64,000 nucleotides of DNA from Methanolobus tindarius DSM 2278 (GTDB lineage Archaea > Halobacteriota > Methanosarcinia > Methanosarcinales > Methanosarcinaceae): positions 2,826,879 through 2,890,878 of the forward strand of contig NZ_AZAJ01000001.1 in assembly GCF_000504205.1 (NCBI RefSeq), in the 5' to 3' direction. The notes below the pieces were generated by a model. That model was not told the DNA's origin, made no database searches, and worked only from the letters and a program-made list of their open reading frames with translations. The stretch's first letter is position 1. The number at the start of each line of letters is the position of its first letter. The translations under genes and the position numbers were made by a program. Shown piece after piece: positions 2,792-57,167 of the stretch.

Positions 2792-3145
2792 CTATTTTCT
2801 CACTTCGCATTTTCTGTCCTGCTGTATGTCCATATATGTTAGTCCCCACTGTGCCAGGGCTTCAAGTACAGGGATGATGGTTTTCCCGAAATCTGTGAGT
2901 GAATACTCGACTCTGGGAGGTATTTCAGGGTACATTTTGCGGTTCACAATTGCGTCATCTTCCAGTTCACGAAGTTGTTTTGTCAGCATACGGGGGGATA
3001 TGCCGGGTAACATCTGCTGAAGTGTATTGTAGCGAAGAACATCTTCTTTTAGCTGCCAGAGTATAAGTGGTTTCCATTTTCCTCCAATAACGCCAAGTGT
3101 TGCTTCCACAGGGCATCCACAGTCGGTTTTTTTAGTATTTTCCAT
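2792..3145 (-). CDS. HxlR-family transcriptional regulator
   Basis: A 117-residue winged-helix regulator. The family hallmarks are present: an N-terminal Cys (DCGCPVEATL), then GGKWKPLILWQL, the recognition-helix region PGISPRMLTKQLRELE, and the wing PRVEYSLTDFG. HxlR proteins often sense electrophiles or redox state through the N-terminal cysteine. The start has a good Shine-Dalgarno (GGAGGG). The gene is divergent from a flavodoxin-like iron-sulfur protein at 3323, a typical regulator-target pair, so control of that gene is a reasonable inference. Confidence 0.92.
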   Translation of the reverse strand: MENTKKTDCGCPVEATLGVIGGKWKPLILWQLKEDVLRYNTLQQMLPGISPRMLTKQLRELEDDAIVNRKMYPEIPPRVEYSLTDFGKTIIPVLEALAQWGLTYMDIQQDRKCEVRK

Positions 3146-3322
3146 GTTTTCCCTCCTCTTTGTTTTCTTTATTTCTTGTCCTTTTCTTGATGTTATTATT
3201 ACTATACTTTTTGTTAGTGACTATCAAAAAAGACTGTATGCGGTATAAATATAGTGCATACACATCTACATTTTGAATATTTTACAGTAATTTACGATTC
3301 AAGCTTAAAGGAAATGGTCAAA

Positions 3323-3877
3323 ATGAAAGTAGTAGGTTTTGTAGGAAGTCCAAGAAAGAACGGTAACACCGACGTACTTGTCCAGCAGGTTCTTGACGGA
3401 GCTGCAGAAGCAGGAGCAGATGTGGAGAAATTCTACATTAATGAAATGAACATAAAAGGATGCCAGGGATGCACATACTGCAGGGAAGTTGATGCATGCA
3501 AACTAAAAGATGACATGTCTAAAGTCTACGATGCTCTTAAAAATGCGGATGGCTTTGTATTCGGCTCCCCTATTTATTTCTTCCAGTTCACAAGCCAGAT
3601 GCGTCAGGTAATTGACCGCTGCTGGGCACTTGTAAATCCTGATTTCACACCCCGTATCGAGGCTGGAAAGAAGGCTATTATTGTAAGTGCACAGGGCAAC
3701 CCGGAACCAGATGCTTTCAAGGGAGTCTTTGAAGAATTTGGCCAGATACTCCAGATGTTTGGAATGGAAGTTAAAGGTACCTTTGTAGATGTCGGACACC
3801 ATGCACCTGGTGAGGCAAAAGAAAATGCAGAGCTTATGGGCCAGGCTAAAACCGCAGGAACCCAGCTGTTTGCTTAA
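3323..3877 (+). CDS. Iron-sulfur flavoprotein-like NAD(P)H-dependent FMN reductase
   Basis: A 184-residue flavodoxin-fold protein. It has the FMN phosphate loop GSPRKNGNTD near the N-terminus, a compact cysteine motif C-x2-C-x2-C-x5-C (GCQGCTYC then AC), and the later GSPIYF flavin loop. This matches archaeal iron-sulfur flavoproteins (Isf family), electron-transfer or detoxifying reductases, and the related multimeric flavodoxin family. ATG 3323 was chosen because AAGG (3308-3311) is well spaced from it; 3314 is an alternative. It is divergent from the HxlR regulator and ends in a clear terminator hairpin. Confidence 0.88.
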   Translation: MKVVGFVGSPRKNGNTDVLVQQVLDGAAEAGADVEKFYINEMNIKGCQGCTYCREVDACKLKDDMSKVYDALKNADGFVFGSPIYFFQFTSQMRQVIDRCWALVNPDFTPRIEAGKKAIIVSAQGNPEPDAFKGVFEEFGQILQMFGMEVKGTFVDVGHHAPGEAKENAELMGQAKTAGTQLFA

Positions 3878-3896
3878 TTGATTTTGTATTCCTAAA

Positions 3897-3924
3897 GGAC
3901 ATGCATCCTGCATGTCCCTTTTTC
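3897..3924 (+). terminator. Hairpin terminator after the flavoprotein gene
   Basis: A 9-bp perfect stem (GGACATGCA / TGCATGTCC) with a 3-nt loop is followed by CTTTTTC. It lies between the flavoprotein gene and the convergent lipoprotein gene and may serve both. Confidence 0.65.
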
Positions 3925-3963
3925 TAAATTCAGGTTTTTTACTGAAAAATCTTTTTTGCGGTT

Positions 3964-5031
3964 TTAATCCTCGTCATTTACTGCAATAAATTCCGCATAA
4001 ACCGGGTAGTGATCAGATACTGCCACAGTTTCATTATAATCAAGTCCGTATTCAAGATCAAACCTGAAAACACCACTATTGCCTGTGAAGTCTGAACTGT
4101 CAGTCAGGATTATACGGTCATAACTGTAATCAGTGGATTTTGTAGTTGTATCTACACTGTTGTTTATTATCCATTCATATGTATCGAGATCATTTGTTGA
4201 ATCCTCATCAAAATAGGAACCGTCTGCATTCAGATCCCCAAGGATAATAAAATCCTTTTCATAAGGATACTCATTTTGTGAATATTCCAGAACGTCATCC
4301 AGCGCATTAATTTCTTCAGTGGCTTCATCGGGATCAGTGTGAATCACCATAAGGACTGCGTCAAAGTTACCTTCTGTGGAGCTGAAAGCTGCAATAAAAG
4401 GTTCCCTGTGGAATGGGTCTGTTCCATTTGCTTCGGGATACGTCTGAGGATCACCGGTAATTTCGACAGTATCAGTATTGAATATGTATGCGTATTGCTC
4501 TTTTGAGGATGTTCTTCCAAGTCTCTCACTGATTACATAATCGTATTGATACCCATCAGAGTTCACCATGTCCATAAGTGCGGGTAAGCTTGTCTGAGAT
4601 GCGTCTCTTATTTCCTGTATTGCAATAATGTCATAGTCATGGACTATCTTTACAATGGTTTCCATAACTTCTGTTTTTCCTGCTTTTGTTACTCCAAATA
4701 CCTGGATGTTGAAAGAACCTATTTTCAGCATTTCCACATTATTTGTAACCGGTTCCGGTTCAGGAGCAGTTTCAATGTTTGTGTTTTCTTCAATATCTCC
4801 TACGGAAGTAAGTTGCGATTCTTCACTGAAGTTCTTATGGTCATTGCTATATTCATCGGCAATTGTATTATTTTCTGTAATGTCACTAATGTTGTTTGTA
4901 TTTTCATGGTCATTTATGACCATAGTTTCAGGCAATTTAGATTCCAGGTCAGACAGGCATCCTGAACTTACACAGGCTAATATAATTAATGTAACAAGTG
5001 TAATAAAAAGTATAATATTCGGTTTATGCAT
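3964..5031 (-). CDS. Secreted lipoprotein with endonuclease/exonuclease/phosphatase domain
   Basis: A 355-residue protein with an N-terminal signal and lipobox (CVSSGC), an Asn/Glu-rich linker to about residue 100, then a DNase I-like EEP domain. Visible family motifs are the N-terminal strand (IGSFNIQVFG), the catalytic Glu in IIAIQEIRD, the GDLNADGSYFDE metal/active-site loop and the C-terminal SDHYPVYAEF His. It probably acts outside the cell as a nuclease or phosphodiesterase; scavenging of nucleic acid phosphate is possible given the phosphate island nearby, but that is inference. The long acidic linker suggests display away from the membrane. Confidence 0.88.
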   Translation of the reverse strand: MHKPNIILFITLVTLIILACVSSGCLSDLESKLPETMVINDHENTNNISDITENNTIADEYSNDHKNFSEESQLTSVGDIEENTNIETAPEPEPVTNNVEMLKIGSFNIQVFGVTKAGKTEVMETIVKIVHDYDIIAIQEIRDASQTSLPALMDMVNSDGYQYDYVISERLGRTSSKEQYAYIFNTDTVEITGDPQTYPEANGTDPFHREPFIAAFSSTEGNFDAVLMVIHTDPDEATEEINALDDVLEYSQNEYPYEKDFIILGDLNADGSYFDEDSTNDLDTYEWIINNSVDTTTKSTDYSYDRIILTDSSDFTGNSGVFRFDLEYGLDYNETVAVSDHYPVYAEFIAVNDED

Positions 5032-16050: not shown

Positions 16051-16932
16051 ATGTATGATATTGAATCACGTTTCAGGCAGATAAGAAATGTAATGATCTA
16101 TATTCTGTTCCTGAACCTTGCCGTTTCTTTTGCAAAGATTGCATACGGAATGTATACCAATGTCCTGAGTATGCAGTCTGACGGTTATCATTCTCTTTTT
16201 GATGGTGTTTCAAATATAGTAGGCCTTATAGGTATACAGATTGCAGCCAAGCCACCTGACAAGGAACACCCCTACGGTCATCGCAAGTTTGAGACTCTGG
16301 CATCCATAGTAATAGCAGTTATACTTGCAGTTGTAGCTTTTGAGATTGTGCATTCCGCTTTTAATAGGTTTGGAACCGGAAGTACACCAGAAGTAACTGT
16401 AATTAGTTTTGCAGTAATGCTTGGAACAATGTGTGTCAATTACGGTGTGACAACTTACGAGCGCAGGAGAGGTATTGAACTTAACAGTGAAGTTCTTCTT
16501 GCAGATTCTGCTCACACTAAAAGTGATATCTATGTTTCACTTTCAGTTATTATCGGCCTTGTAGCCATCCATCTGGGATACCCATTTATTGATCCGATTG
16601 TTTCTGTTTTAATAGCACTGGTCATATTGCATGCAGGAGCAGAGATAATCCTCCATAGTGTGTCAATTCTGGCTGATGAGTCACAGATAGATACTGAGAA
16701 AATAGCAAACGTTGTTAGAAATGTAGAAGGTGTCATCGATTGCCATAAAATAAGAACCCGTGGTCCTCCGGGGAATGTTTTTGTTGATCTGCATGTAGAG
16801 GTTGATCCTGAAATGACAACATACAAGTCACATACCATATCCCATATTGTGCAATACAGGATCAGGGAAAATTTTGATGGAATAGAGGATGTTCTTGTCC
16901 ATATAGAGCCGGCTCACACTCGGTCGGTATAA
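16051..16932 (+). CDS. Cation diffusion facilitator family metal transporter
   Basis: A 293-residue protein with six predicted membrane segments and a C-terminal cytoplasmic ferredoxin-like domain. The two intramembrane HxxxD sites are present (YHSLFDG near residue 51 and SAHTKSD near residue 155). The DKEHPYGHRKFE loop is characteristic of the MamB/FieF type. It probably exports Zn, Fe or Mn by proton antiport; the metal cannot be told. It lies 25 bases before aroC, so they may be co-transcribed. Confidence 0.92.
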   Translation: MYDIESRFRQIRNVMIYILFLNLAVSFAKIAYGMYTNVLSMQSDGYHSLFDGVSNIVGLIGIQIAAKPPDKEHPYGHRKFETLASIVIAVILAVVAFEIVHSAFNRFGTGSTPEVTVISFAVMLGTMCVNYGVTTYERRRGIELNSEVLLADSAHTKSDIYVSLSVIIGLVAIHLGYPFIDPIVSVLIALVILHAGAEIILHSVSILADESQIDTEKIANVVRNVEGVIDCHKIRTRGPPGNVFVDLHVEVDPEMTTYKSHTISHIVQYRIRENFDGIEDVLVHIEPAHTRSV

Positions 16933-16957
16933 ATAGTATCAAGAGGTCTATACAATT

Positions 16958-18052
16958 ATGCCAGGAAATTCATTCGGACATTCTTTCAGAATAACAACAT
17001 GGGGTGAATCGCATGGAAAAGCCCTTGGAGTCGTTGTTGACGGCATACCTGCAGGACTTGAACTTTCAGAAGAGGATATTCAAAAAGATCTTGACAGGCG
17101 AAGACCGGGCCAGAGCGAAGTTTCAACACCTCGTTCCGAATCTGATTCTGTAGAGATCCTGTCCGGTGTAATTGATGGAACAACAACCGGAATGCCGGTT
17201 TCCATGATGGTCTGGAACAAGAATGCAAAATCCAGTGCATATGATTACATAAAGAACATCCCAAGACCGGGACATGCGGATCTTGCTTATACTGAAAAAT
17301 ATGGTATCCGTGATCACCGAGGTGGTGGAAGGTCATCGGGCAGGGAAACCATCGGCAGGGTTGCCGGAGGTGCTGTTGCCAGGAAACTCCTGTCACAGAA
17401 AGGAGTTGAGGTTTTTGCTCATGTAACAGAACTTGGTGGTGTAAAAGCAAAATCACTCTCATTTGAGGAAATACGCAGCAACGTTGATAGCAATGTTGTA
17501 CGCTGTGCTGACCCGGAAGCTGCTGAAAAAATGCTGGAGCAGGTAAACAAAGCCCGTTTTGAAGGTGACAGTATCGGTGGTATTGTGGAAATTATTGCTA
17601 CCGGTGTTCCGGCAGGACTTGGTGAACCAGTATTTGACAAACTGGATGCGGATATTGCCTGTGCAATGATGGGGATAGGAGCTGTAAAGGGTGTTGAGAT
17701 TGGTGCAGGTTTTGAATGTGCCGGAATGAAAGGCAGCCAGATGAATGATCCTATTAGACTCAATAATGGAAAGGTAACTCCTGCAGAGAACAACGCCGGC
17801 GGAATCACGGGTGGAATATCTACAGGGATGCCTGTGGTCTGCAGGATAGCAGTAAAACCCACTCCTTCCATATCAAAGTCCCAGAAAAGTGCTGATATGG
17901 ATGGAATGAAAGAAATCGATGTAGAAATACATGGCCGCCATGACCCGACAATCCCGCCAAGAATGGTTCCGGTTGCAGAGTCAATGATGGCACTTGTGCT
18001 TGCAGATCATATGATCAGGAGTGGACGTATTGGTCCTGACTCCCTTCTATGA
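16958..18052 (+). CDS. aroC: Chorismate synthase
   Basis: A 364-residue FMN-dependent enzyme converting EPSP to chorismate, the last step of the shikimate pathway. The signatures GESHG near the N-terminus, DRRRPGQ, the loop ending [15 protein letters not shown], and the C-terminal [16 protein letters not shown] are intact. Length is normal. ATG follows AGAGG. No other aro gene is in the window. Confidence 0.97.
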
Positions 18053-51652: not shown

Positions 51653-51765
51653 TTTTGTCCTTTTGCTTTTAAAGGATACTCAACAATCCGGGCAGATTTT
51701 TAAATTTATGCCGGATTTTTCTGTGATATACACATTTTAATCCTTTTTTCCAGCTAATCCATCAA

Positions 51766-51845
51766 TAAAGGTTATATACAACTAGTTACATCTAGGGGTT
51801 GCTCGAGGGCGAAAGCGCCACCGAACAACTTAATCGCAAAACAAT
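51766..51845 (+). promoter_or_regulatory. Promoter and structured leader of tRNA-Val
   Basis: A TATA box (TTATATAC, 51772-51779) with A-rich element before it lies about 70 bases upstream of the tRNA, leaving a leader of about 45-50 bases. In it GTTG and CAAC enclose a hairpin GGCG-AAAG-CGCC. Such a structured leader before a tRNA may be removed by RNase P. Confidence 0.45.
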
Positions 51846-51922
51846 GGGCCCGTGGTCTAGCCGGTTATGACATCGCCTTTACACGGCGGGGGTCATGAGT
51901 TCGAATCTCATCGGGCCCACCA
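51846..51922 (+). tRNA. tRNA-Val(UAC)
   Basis: Acceptor stem GGGCCCG (51846-51852) pairs with CGGGCCC (51912-51918), followed by A and an encoded CCA. The anticodon loop is TTTACAC, giving anticodon TAC. The T arm has GAGTTCGAATCTC. Its 3' part, from the anticodon loop on, is the att core of an integrated element, but the tRNA gene remains intact because the element supplies the same 45 bases. Confidence 0.95.
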
Positions 51923-52188
51923 ATTTCTACTACTTCTTCTGATACTGATTCTTGTAACGCTTCGAGTTGCTTCTCTAACTCTTCGACTCTTGCTTCTAAC
52001 GGACTTGTGGACACGGAGTGTACACTTTCCTGATCAACAACAACTAGGAAAGCCTGCTTACCCTCATGAGATGTAGGAATAATCTGTGCATTTTTTCCAA
52101 TAATGCTGCCATATTCCTTCGGTAATCTGATAGACGGATAGATTCTGGTTTTGCTAGCTTTATGGGCAGTAACTTTGCTTGTATACAT
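51865..52188 (-). CDS. Split integrase, N-terminal half (intN)
   Basis: A 107-residue half gene whose reading frame runs into the tRNA. It has an AbrB-like hairpin region (about 14-55, TRIYPSIRLPKEYGSI), a coiled coil (LEARVEELEKQLEALQES) and the tRNA-coded peptide GGPDEIRTHDPRRV shared with the intC frame. In the circle it would be followed directly by intC to give an integrase of about 381 residues. ATG at 52188 lies inside a 16-base palindrome; GTG 52197 is the alternative. Confidence 0.85.
   Translation of the reverse strand: MYTSKVTAHKASKTRIYPSIRLPKEYGSIIGKNAQIIPTSHEGKQAFLVVVDQESVHSVSTSPLEARVEELEKQLEALQESVSEEVVEIGGPDEIRTHDPRRVKAMS
51878..51922 (+). repeat. attL core of the integrative element
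   Basis: A 45-base sequence, the 3' part of the tRNA-Val gene from the anticodon loop to CCA. It is repeated exactly at 55298-55342. The flanks differ at both ends. Confidence 0.95.
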
Positions 52189-52201
52189 AGTGTACACTAT
52201 G
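52186..52201. promoter_or_regulatory. Operator-like palindrome at the integrase start
   Basis: CATAGTGTACACTATG is a perfect 16-base palindrome covering the intN start codon. It could be an autoregulatory binding site, perhaps for the AbrB-like N-terminus of the integrase itself. Confidence 0.5.
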
Positions 52202-52631
52202 CTTTATTGAATTAAATTTTCTCTGGTCTATTTTTAGACAGTTTTGTGCCTGTGCGGGCGCTGTTCTGCCTAGGCGCGATTTCCAATATTTATCCAGTTA
52301 TTGTGTTGGATTGTCAAATTGAAGGCAATATTTAAACAGTGATTAAGGCTATGAATAAATCATTTTTTAAAAGAATCACTTTCTCATCCGCAGAGAAGTC
52401 CAGGCTAACCTCTGCTACTGTGGCTAAGGAGTCTATTCAGAACAGTAATTGAATCAGTGTTGTTTAGCATACTGCAGGACTGCAGTCTCTAATACTAAGC
52501 AGTAATGATTTAGTTTAATGCTTTGTGGCAGGCGCTGTTCTGCCTAATTATTCCTTCTTGGATACTGTAGATATAGTAAGTAAAAGTTTGTTATAATTCA
52601 TTTTATTAACTTGCTAAAAACTCTTTTAACT
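52202..52631. other. Non-coding region of the element with direct repeats
   Basis: A 430-base non-coding stretch in a 3.4-kb element. It contains two exact copies of GGCGCTGTTCTGCCTA (52257-52272 and 52531-52546), each able to form a small hairpin (GGCAG / CTGCC in the second), and a short palindromic pair CTGCAG-GA-CTGCAG near 52484. It is a candidate origin or arm-type integrase site; no gene is seen. Confidence 0.45.
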
Positions 52632-54233
52632 TCATAAGCTACTATCGCTACTTTTTTCTTCTGAAATAAGTTCTACAGCTCCTAATCTTAGATAAACAAA
52701 TAAAATTAATGATGCAAATACCTCATTGAATTCAATATATTTTAACAGACCATGTGCAAGACGGTTTCTTAGATTAATAGAATCCTTTTCAATAAACAAT
52801 ATTTTCAAAAAATCGTTAAAGTCTTCTCCAACTATATTTTGTACTTCTTCTTTCCTTAAATAGTTACCAAGGTCTCCTTCTCGTATCCCATCCATGTCTG
52901 TAATTGTAGTTGGAATACCTCCTATATACATTAAATTTCTAATGATATTTTCAAGTTTTGGAACCAAAATATGCATGCATGTGACATAATCACTTTTAAA
53001 ATATGCTTCTATTCCTGTTTTGGCAGTTTCCAAATCATCTTGAACTAATAACTCGTTATTCGATAAATATCGAAAAACAACCTCTGAGCTAAACATTTCT
53101 TTTTCAGTCAGTCTTTTAAATATTATATTCAATACAACTCCTATGAACTTCATGTGATTGGAATATTGGAATCTATATTGGTGGTTTTTTATAGCTTCTG
53201 GAGAAGAACATGCTTTTACATCATTGCCGTCACATGTGGTAACTGTTGGAATTATACCAATAAGTGGATAGGTTGCTAAAATTTCTTCTGTTAATTGCAT
53301 CATGTCTTTTTTCTTAGGAACAAATTCATCATATAACGCAATCTCTAACGGAATTTTATCAAATTCTAATGTTGAGAAATAAGAAATAAGTTTATTAATG
53401 TGATCCATTGGTAGTTTTACATCAACAGAATTTTTTGAGTATTCTACCTTTTGTGATTCGGCTTTTAATCTCAACTTTACTTCCTCAATTTTAGGATGAT
53501 TTCCAGCTAATTCATAGTAACCCAGTGCCTCCTTTAGGAAAGCACAAACAACAGCATGCTCATCTTTTCTCAATTCTGCATCAGTTTCGTATGTAATTGC
53601 AATTTTTTCAAAAATAGCTGCCAACTCTTTTTGAGTTCCTTTTTTGTTTAGAATTTTTCTTTGTATCTCTAAATAGCTTCTTGCTAAATGCATATTTTTT
53701 GAATCATAGAAATATTGAAATCCATTTTCAGTTATTGATATTATTTTTTCATAAGTAGTCTTTTCAAGCAGATTTAAATTATTGTATAATATGTCTAATA
53801 ACTCAAGGTTCCATCTTAAATCATGACGATTTTCAATAACCTTAATTGTTTCAAAGATATCTTCAACAATCTCATGGACATTATCTAAATGCCCTTTTCC
53901 CAAGCTTTTATAGATGTCACTAGATATCTGAAAATTTGCCACAGAAAATAAATACATTTTTTCATTTGCGATATTAGTTGCATTTTCATGGAATTTAGCG
54001 GCTGCTGCAACAGCTGCTTTATAGTCTTGCTCAAAGATCCATAATGAATAATTATCCAGAGGAGCAAAAAAAGGATGATTAATGGATTGAATGTATGTTC
54101 TAATTTCATTTGAATGTTGTTCATTACCTTTTGCTTTTTTTATTTCAGCAATTACAGAACCAAAGATCATGTTAATAATGTGATCATTATCGTTTTCTTC
54201 CAATTGTTCTTTAACCCAATCCAAATCAAACAT
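52632..54233 (-). CDS. DUF4209-like protein with HEPN-type RNxxxHG motif (element cargo)
   Basis: A 533-residue soluble, helix-rich, AT-rich protein without signal. The C-terminal part (about 410-520) ends in NLRNRLAHGLL. This is the RNxxxHG motif that defines DUF4209 and fits the Rx4-6H catalytic motif of HEPN RNases. The N-terminal about 300 residues look like TPR-type helical pairs. It is the only gene of the element besides the integrase, so I infer a host-benefit or defence role (for example an RNA-cutting abortive response); activity is unproven. Confidence 0.75.
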   Translation of the reverse strand: MFDLDWVKEQLEENDNDHIINMIFGSVIAEIKKAKGNEQHSNEIRTYIQSINHPFFAPLDNYSLWIFEQDYKAAVAAAAKFHENATNIANEKMYLFSVANFQISSDIYKSLGKGHLDNVHEIVEDIFETIKVIENRHDLRWNLELLDILYNNLNLLEKTTYEKIISITENGFQYFYDSKNMHLARSYLEIQRKILNKKGTQKELAAIFEKIAITYETDAELRKDEHAVVCAFLKEALGYYELAGNHPKIEEVKLRLKAESQKVEYSKNSVDVKLPMDHINKLISYFSTLEFDKIPLEIALYDEFVPKKKDMMQLTEEILATYPLIGIIPTVTTCDGNDVKACSSPEAIKNHQYRFQYSNHMKFIGVVLNIIFKRLTEKEMFSSEVVFRYLSNNELLVQDDLETAKTGIEAYFKSDYVTCMHILVPKLENIIRNLMYIGGIPTTITDMDGIREGDLGNYLRKEEVQNIVGEDFNDFLKILFIEKDSINLRNRLAHGLLKYIEFNEVFASLILFVYLRLGAVELISEEKSSDSSL

Positions 54234-54462
54234 ATTTAACGATAAACTTGCAACAATATAATTTTATTTGCTAACGTTACTGTATTAAGTAAAATAATTC
54301 GTAAAATAGTATATATGTAATATCAAGTTTTTTACATATGTAGGAACGTAATCCTAAAAACTAGAACCTGTATTCTTAAAGAGTGGTATTTTTAGATGTT
54401 ACCTATTATCCCTAAAATTCTTTGCAACTGGTATAATCTGAACACTAGTAATTAGTAAGTCA

Positions 54463-55342
54463 TTACTGCAAGATATCATCAAACCTTTTCACAAGTTTAC
54501 TATATGCCTCTTTTGCCTGCATTACTTTATTCAGATAATGAGCACTGCCCACTGTCACCGGTGCTCTGCCTTGGATGAAGTCAGCAATACTCTCAGGTAT
54601 ACCTTCGGATATCATAAGATTCAGGTGCCATTTGCGGATGGTCTTTGCAGTAACACGTTCATGCCTCAATTTTTTCATGTAGTGGTTGTAGGTGTAAGGT
54701 TTACCTATGCTGTTTAGTACTGGAATGAATGACGTTGGGAAGAATATCTGGAAAGTCCTTTTGGTACCTTTTGAAAAAGCAGATGTTGGATAGTGAGCAA
54801 CTTCTCCATTAATGACCACGTTACGTTCGTCAAAAGTTTCAACCATAGCATGAACATGTGAAAGCCGATTACCTGAGAAAATCACCAGTTGTAAGATAGG
54901 TTTGATATCCACTGCACACGCATCTAAAGCATCTTGTATTTCATCATCTGTTACGTAGATTTCTACAACACCTGATTGTTTAATCTTGATAAAACGTCTC
55001 CACTTCTCAATAGTATAGCCAGCCACTTCATCGATATCCTCTTCTTCAAAATAGTTCATGAAGTTGCGCAGCCCACGTTCTGCTTTATCTTTTAGAAGAA
55101 GTTCTCGTAGATCCTGCGGTTTAGAGACGGTTGAGTTTTTAAAAAATCTTGTTAGTGAATTGTAGTAATCCCTCTTAGTCGATTTTGTGATGTCTCTATA
55201 TTGGAGCCACTTTGTAAAAGAATCATGGTGGATGGCCCATTCTTCATTCAATGTAGCTGCATACTGTTTTTTAATCATTTTCGTTATCAGTAGGCCGTTT
55301 ACACGGCGGGGGTCATGAGTTCGAATCTCATCGGGCCCACCA
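54463..55342 (-). CDS. Split integrase, C-terminal catalytic half (intC)
   Basis: About 292 residues of a tyrosine recombinase from the att core on. The reading frame opens further to 55425 into host flank only by chance. Catalytic residues visible are Arg in FSGNRLSHVHA, the KTIRKWH region (matching the HxLR box) and the final Tyr in SAHYLNK. It lacks its own start codon in the element, as intC halves do. In the excised form it is joined to intN at the tRNA-coded peptide. Integrated, the split should silence it. Confidence 0.9.
55298..55342 (+). repeat. attR core of the integrative element
   Basis: Exact 45-base copy of the tRNA-Val 3' part (TTTACACGG... to CCACCA end), marking the right end of the element. 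The bases on its left (TAGGCCG) do not match the tRNA. Confidence 0.95.
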
Positions 55343-55812
55343 CAATTATCTATTTCTCTTGTAGTTTGTTTTTGCAGACTTCCAATATTTTTTCTAGCAT
55401 AGTAGTGCTGAGCAGAGCTTAGCAACTCTCAAGTTTACATCTTATTTTGCTTGTTCAAATTCTTAAAAGGCAGAAGTCAGGCATTTAAGCAAGGTATATT
55501 GAGTATATCTTATTCTGAATGAACGAAAATTAAATTTTTCTAGATGTACTTTGCACTATATAATATGAATGCTGAAATGGATAGCTTTTTACACTCCATG
55601 TTTATGGAGGGAAAGAATAGAATTGTGGGATGAGTGTGTAAAGAAAAGATAGATTGTACTCTATAGAAATCCTATCAAAATAAAACATTTAAGGATATAT
55701 TGATTATTTGTATATTTTACGAGGCTATCCTGAAACGAACGAATTACTTAAAATAGAAAAGCTCATCATCTCCTTGTATGAGATGTGAGCAAAAATGCAT
55801 AAGGTTCTAAAT
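55343..55812. other. Gene-free flank right of the element
   Basis: No supported gene in these 470 AT-rich bases. A small hairpin CTCCAT-GTTT-ATGGAG lies at 55594-55609, with TTTTTACACTCC and GAGTGTGTAAAG around it as an imperfect longer inverted repeat. It probably is chromosomal sequence that followed the tRNA, or debris of earlier insertions. Confidence 0.4.
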
Positions 55813-56793
55813 CTATGAACTGACACCATTAGTAATTGACTGATTATTACTTGCAATATTACAGCTATCTTCTCTAGGTTCCTCTTCTTTAATGTTAGAC
55901 AAGATCCAATTTTTATTCTTGTAGAAGTTGTCTGTACCTGTTCCATCTTTTAGAATGCATCCATGTAGAGAATCCTTTTGTGTGATTTTATCCCACAATT
56001 TTTCATAATAGTTAGAATATATTCCGACTATGTTTTTGTTTTCAAAGTAAAGGCATTCTTTGAATTGGCCTCTATTACGAGGAACACGGTTTAAAAGAGG
56101 ATTTAGTATAAACATCTTGTTTTCATCAATTATTTGGCAACTGACAACTGAAAATGGAAATATATCTTCAATGTCATCTATTCTAATGTATGCTAAATGA
56201 AGATTCTGATATGCATCTGTATCCATAATGAGTTTTTCTACCCATTCCAGTTTATCTTTAGTAGGGATACTAATGATTCTTTTGAAATCAATTGCAGGAT
56301 GAGTTTGGATATGTTCCAATACACTATCAAAATAATTTACTCGATCTTTATCACTAAATTTAGGTGAAGTTGGAGCCCATTGATCCAAATGAGTCACCCA
56401 TACTCTAGTAGAAGATGTGATTACGCTTGCATTTAAGAGATGATAAAAGTCTTCTTGATTATTTATAGGTTTGATAACTGCAGGAGTCCCGCTCTTTAAA
56501 AGATCAACATCATCTGCTATTCTATTTATTTTTTCAGTGTTTTCCTTTAAAACAGTAATTTCATTTGAAATCTGAGTTACTTTATCACATGTTAAATCAT
56601 TTTTTTTAGTATTAGCAATTAGAAATGTCGATAGTGAAACTAATAAATACAGCAATATGTCTATTTTGTTAATTTCTATGCCTTCTATTTTATTAGGTAG
56701 TAAATAGAGAACTATACAAATGGCTGTAACTACTATCGAAACATAGGATAAAATATCATATTTACCAAACTTTATTTCACCTATACGCATCAT
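55813..56793 (-). CDS. Two-span membrane protein with coiled coil and large cytoplasmic domain
   Basis: About 326 residues: two membrane helices (about 15-33 and 45-62), a coiled-coil stretch (about 75-105), then a domain with SSTRVWVTHLDQW and FKRIISIPTKDKLEWVEKLI. The latter resembles the PLD-like C-terminal domain of archaeal transcription/sensor proteins, but there is no HKD motif. The AT-rich codon use and place in the integration hotspot suggest acquisition. Membrane plus sensor layout is like some defence effectors; that is inference. Confidence 0.6.
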   Translation of the reverse strand: MMRIGEIKFGKYDILSYVSIVVTAICIVLYLLPNKIEGIEINKIDILLYLLVSLSTFLIANTKKNDLTCDKVTQISNEITVLKENTEKINRIADDVDLLKSGTPAVIKPINNQEDFYHLLNASVITSSTRVWVTHLDQWAPTSPKFSDKDRVNYFDSVLEHIQTHPAIDFKRIISIPTKDKLEWVEKLIMDTDAYQNLHLAYIRIDDIEDIFPFSVVSCQIIDENKMFILNPLLNRVPRNRGQFKECLYFENKNIVGIYSNYYEKLWDKITQKDSLHGCILKDGTGTDNFYKNKNWILSNIKEEEPREDSCNIASNNQSITNGVSS

Positions 56794-57167
56794 TGATTCC
56801 TTCTTTGAAGTTTACATAAAATATTGATAATGATGAAGGTAAAAAACATATTAGTATTTAGACTTATTTACATTATCTTCAAATAAATACTGTAGTTTAT
56901 TTAAATAATTCTAGATAAAAACAGTCATAAGTATCTCATATATTCAATATAGTTTTAATTAAATACCTTCCAAAAATGTATCATATTAAAAAAAGCAACA
57001 TACAGTTATACGCAGCACATTCAAAGCAGTACACTTTTCATAAGGTTCAGGTACCATTTGCATATGATTTTTGCAGTGACACGTCTATATCTCAAGTGTA
57101 CCATGTAGTGATTGTAGGTATATACAAACCAGCAGTCATTAATAAAAAACTCATAACCTTAGCCAGT
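56794..57167. other. Intergenic debris with integrase fragment
   Basis: 374 AT-rich bases. Apart from the integrase relic at 57040-57130 there is no supported gene. An open frame at 56976-57176 is produced by the relic read on the opposite strand and is not a gene. Confidence 0.5.
57040..57130 (-). pseudogene. Relic of an SSV-type integrase
   Basis: Read side by side, 57040-57130 matches 54614-54705 of intC at about three bases in four over about 90 bases. This includes the region that codes for the catalytic KTIRKWH segment. Neither side of the fragment matches further. It is therefore a decayed piece of a related integrase, from an earlier element in the same tRNA site. Confidence 0.75.

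Follow-up and report, generated by a model that had tools for sequence, protein, structure and literature searches.

How an element persists when its own integration destroys the enzyme needed for its exit is the puzzle posed by suicidal integrases, and it is raised in compact form by the tRNA-Val(TAC) gene of Methanolobus tindarius DSM 2278. Here, we analyze a 3,420-bp unit at this gene within a window of 64,000 nucleotides (contig NZ_AZAJ01000001.1, positions 2,826,879 to 2,890,878 of the forward strand; coordinates below are those of the window). The unit is a real, well-bounded suicidal-integrase element with a single cargo gene, in a tRNA-Val site rich in defense genes. We consider it likely that it is a compact type I element of the SSV/pT26-2 kind, stacked on an older, decayed one, carrying a DUF4209/HEPN payload and probably trapped. 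A preliminary description, made from the letters of the window, had already proposed an SSV-type integrative element with one cargo gene; the candidate defense nature of that cargo, an older integrase relic to its right, and the relatives of the element go beyond it.

The unit is bounded by two attachment (att) sites on the forward strand, the left (51878-51922) forming the 3′ 45 bp of tRNA-Val(TAC) (51846-51922, forward strand; ARAGORN) and the right lying at 55298-55342. The copies form an exact direct repeat (45 of 45 positions identical) at a spacing of 3,420 bp, and the tRNA gene stays intact, the att site overlapping its 3′ part. Elsewhere in the genome (3.15 Mb, single contig), tRNA-Val(TAC) is matched only by the tRNA-Val(GAC) gene (86%) and by a 27-nucleotide piece at a tRNA-Ile gene. 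The N-terminal part of an integrase, intN (51865-52197, reverse strand), starts at GTG 52197 or ATG 52188, has a coiled-coil-like tail, and terminates inside the tRNA gene; homologous intN frames stand at tRNA genes of many relatives. The catalytic part, intC (54463-55347, reverse strand), starts in the right att copy and extends to 54463. Both frames translate the repeat as GGPDEIRTHDPRRV, so that the repeats, the two frames, and their shared in-frame peptide are as first described. Joined in silico, intN, att, and intC yield a single open frame of 385 codons with the stop codon counted (384 amino acids [aa]); the att site thus lies inside the integrase gene, which is divided into its two parts at the ends of the unit.

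intC is assigned to the suicidal (SSV/type I) integrases by its match to PF16795 (1.5e-39), a family carried by integrases that split upon integration (PMC8371274). It aligns with the solved catalytic domain of the SSV1 integrase (3uxu, 3vcf, and 4dks; ~2e-9, best 1.8e-9), and all catalytic residues are conserved (reverse strand; R, 54867-54865; K, 54762-54760; KxxR, 54645-54634; HY, 54540-54535). In the proposed cycle, the circular form would encode one 384-aa tyrosine recombinase, which would recombine the att site within its gene with the tRNA 3′ end, splitting the integrase upon integration but leaving the tRNA whole. A search of this genome for PF16795 gave a single match. Since the integrase halves lie apart and no second copy of the family was found, the element has probably become trapped; excision would require an enzyme from outside, and the unit would stay in place until a related element supplied a full-length integrase.

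By alignment, the closest integrases of known elements are those of a plasmid and a provirus. The integrase of pT26-2 (Thermococcus sp. 26/2, GU056179) aligns with 99% of intC at 34.9% identity, the tRNA-coded peptide being part of the alignment, and pT26-2 likewise has its att site at a tRNA 3′ end and an integrase that is split on integration (PMC6972569). However, pT26-2 is 21.6 kb long with seven conserved core genes (PMC6972569), whereas the interior here is a single DUF4209/HEPN gene, with no recognized counterpart of those core functions. The integrase of Archaeoglobus profundus pleomorphic provirus 1 (BK065154; 14.7 kb) is 36.7% identical over 84%. SSV1 (Fuselloviridae) integrase D335 has PF16795, the catalytic residues, and split-gene integration in common with the unit (PMC8371274); SSV integrases are 25 to 29% identical to intC, but no virus structural genes, a feature of Fuselloviridae, are present in the unit. 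The initial claim that the element is far smaller than known archaeal integrants was overstated: a unit of 3,444 bp lies in the related genome G019, and the published thaumarchaeal NitUzo-E2 (2.6 kb; PMC6563490) is another very small integrant in which no replication gene is obvious. The SSV1-like split integrase described in the same paper belongs to NitEve-E3, not to NitUzo-E2.

The sole payload is a gene of 533 aa (52632-54233, reverse strand), predicted to encode an antiviral RNase. Its C-terminal domain is DUF4209 (PF13910, 4.1e-13), a HEPN family (PMC3710099), with the HEPN-type Rx4H motif present as RNRLAH. Residues 64 to 528 align with the PADLOC profile PDC-S39 (9e-42), the first ~110 profile positions being unmatched, and the protein is placed as a divergent relative of PDC-S39; it probably acts as an RNase in antiviral defense. 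Among 185 genomes from the order, just 4 contain any match to PDC-S39. The GC content of the gene (29.7%) differs from that of the integrase halves (39 to 40%). No close relatives of cargo or integrase were found among viral contigs, nor was the cargo found in phage records, and an AlphaFold model made without an alignment (mean predicted local distance difference test score, 43) was too poor for a structure search.

The integrase family was matched in 65 of the 199 genomes searched and occurs at tRNA-Val genes throughout Methanosarcinaceae, and the 45-bp att core of this unit is identical in the elements of G001 and G007. Periods between att pairs at tRNA-Val range from small (3,420 bp here; 3,444 bp in G019; 5,686 bp in G056; 6,168 bp, imperfect, in G051; and 7,704 bp in a second unit of G002) through intermediate (10,195 bp in G007; 11,867, 14,415, 14,558, 15,765, and 15,809 bp; and 16,783 bp in G001) to large (18,777, 20,020, 22,130, 27,743, and 36,577 bp). 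Similar intN halves end in tRNA-Gly in G052 and lie beside tRNA-Gln in G069. Larger elements carry type I restriction-modification genes (in 11 elements with 88 open reading frames [ORFs], five HsdM-like and five HsdS-like), a Septu PtuA (1e-115), MkoA/IetA-like proteins (Mokosh-like MkoA), and some primase/helicase genes. Among the small elements, that of G019 carries a weakly AbiEii-like protein with a partner, that of G051 a GmrSD/NsnA protein and an NrS-1-type primase, and that of G056 an ORC-CDC6-like ATPase and a 511-aa protein. Because restriction-modification and other defense cargo recurs in many of these elements, tRNA-Val is a recurrent entry point for defense-type genes, apparently one of note for Methanosarcinaceae. 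In the G019 element, a Csa3-like winged helix-turn-helix protein without its N-terminal half (L042, 3229-3669, reverse strand) adjoins the shortened intN, and a group II intron reverse transcriptase/maturase (L054, 17576-19120, reverse strand) lies inside the second G002 element.

The nearest relative, in G009, is the same element with different cargo, as the preliminary description had proposed to look for. It occupies the same tRNA gene and shares intN and the 3′ part of intC at 85 to 87% DNA identity (intN, 85% aa identity). DNA homology is limited to 51764-52225 on the intN side and 54481-54804 in the 3′ part of intC (87%), with none between; on one side it breaks off 28 nucleotides beyond intN, on the other six codons before intC ends. 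The slot holds one gene unrelated to the DUF4209 cargo, encoding a 558-aa ORC-CDC6/Sll1717-like P-loop ATPase that is weakly similar to an anti-phage protein. With a stop within intN and the right att site missing, the G009 element appears to be decaying. In the adjoining host DNA, identity falls to 78% and 71%, but a host gene close by matches at 87% as well, so that a recent transfer is suggested at most.

How far these observations support an integrated element, and of what kind, can now be weighed. The alternative of a chance or unrelated repeat, with an old tRNA fragment as its second copy and frames that do not make up one integrase, draws on the frequency of tRNA fragments beside tRNA genes, but an exact identity of 45 bp is far beyond chance, the repeat is in frame on both sides, and intC has all its catalytic residues; this alternative is refuted by the many genomes that have homologous intN and intC halves paired at tRNA-Val, and we give it practically no credence. 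A compact suicidal-integrase element is the reading that we retain, and some findings weigh against parts of it. No replication gene was recognized in the unit, as had been noted at the outset, nor a proven replication origin. The cargo scores ~140 bits against PDC-S39, compared with 675 to 745 bits for three other proteins from the same archaeal family, and PDC-S39 is itself a defense candidate.

As to whether such an element is a minimal mobile unit or a shrunken larger one, the chances are about equal. In the shrunken form, a larger integrated plasmid or provirus would have lost its replication and transfer genes after suicidal integration, keeping its ends and a useful gene. This origin is compatible with the described anatomy, and we put it close to an even chance: most att-bounded relatives span 10 to 37 kb, some with primase/helicase-type genes, and decay is seen elsewhere, in the intN of G019, which has no N-terminal part, as well as in G009. 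Yet the unit retains intact integrase halves and an intact att pair, neither spacer of the unit (434 and 229 bp) holds relics of genes from the sampled larger elements, and G009 repeats the one-gene layout with an unrelated gene. That repetition favors a genuinely minimal element, an integrase module that would move single genes, swapping cargo in a constant frame and borrowing replication and transfer; between the two genomes, the integrase frame is better conserved than the host flanks, and the single genes that fill the slot are unrelated. The idea is plausible, if short of an even chance, given that there are two such cases only, both in one integrase sublineage, that the identity of the frame is equaled by that of a nearby host gene, that no replication function is present, and that the circle is a predicted one, read from an in silico junction. 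These elements offer a small natural methanogen system for asking how suicidal-integrase elements persist and swap cargo, and a one-cargo unit of 3.4 kb would be easy to construct and test.

The noncoding DNA of the unit had been put at about 430 bases, which holds for one side (52198-52631, 434 bp); a second spacer (54234-54462, 229 bp, 25% GC) brings the total to ~660 bp. A 19-bp direct repeat, GCrGGCGCTGTTCTGCCTA, lies in the 434-bp spacer (52254-52272 and 52528-52546); it was considered as a family-wide site and rejected, as none was present at the loci of other genomes fetched. A palindrome, CATAGTGTACACTATG (52184-52204), spans the intN start, also occurs in G009, and may be an operator for autoregulation.

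Behind the stacked unit lies what is left of an older, decayed element, extending from 55343 to 57122 (reverse strand; GC content, 29.5%). The old intC relic at its far end (57033-57122, reverse strand) is solid (73% over 30 aa; E, 6e-9), and G004, which is without both stacked units, resumes homology through its host flank at 57123. Between the right att copy and the relic lies an ORF of 326 aa (55813-56793, reverse strand), likely old cargo, with apparent membrane helices and an unknown domain; it is 52% identical to a protein located elsewhere in G001 (L083). A candidate for the older intN to the right of the right att copy (KNIGSLQKQTTREIDN) was rejected, as a profile of real intN tails scored it no better than shuffled controls. 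Significant intN relics do lie beside the right att site in G056, G084, and G092, with none in the window.

Stacking may have a further consequence, seen in G001. There, the inner att site (16882-16926) lies within an unsplit integrase gene of 442 aa (16472-17800 in the concatenation L089+L053+L088; L053, ~2972-4300), the N-terminal part of which is unlike the intN at the tRNA gene 16.8 kb away. The simplest reading is that tandem integration fused an older intN, via att, with a newer intC. Homologous inversion has been described as a source of chimeric integrases in a review that also mentions tandem integration (PMC8371274); no description of integrase fusion by stacking was found in the limited selection of literature searched. 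We tentatively extend this to the family at tRNA-Val, in which single, often defense, genes would be swapped in a constant integrase frame, and stacking would fuse older intN and newer intC via the shared att site, restoring a full-length integrase and making the "suicide" reversible by accretion; we regard this general scheme as rather unlikely at present. Beside the right att site of several genomes (L049, L054/L072, L055, and L016), a truncated att site with a short intN-like linker recurs every ~140 to 200 bp in ladders, as if these were the remains of repeated insertion and loss.
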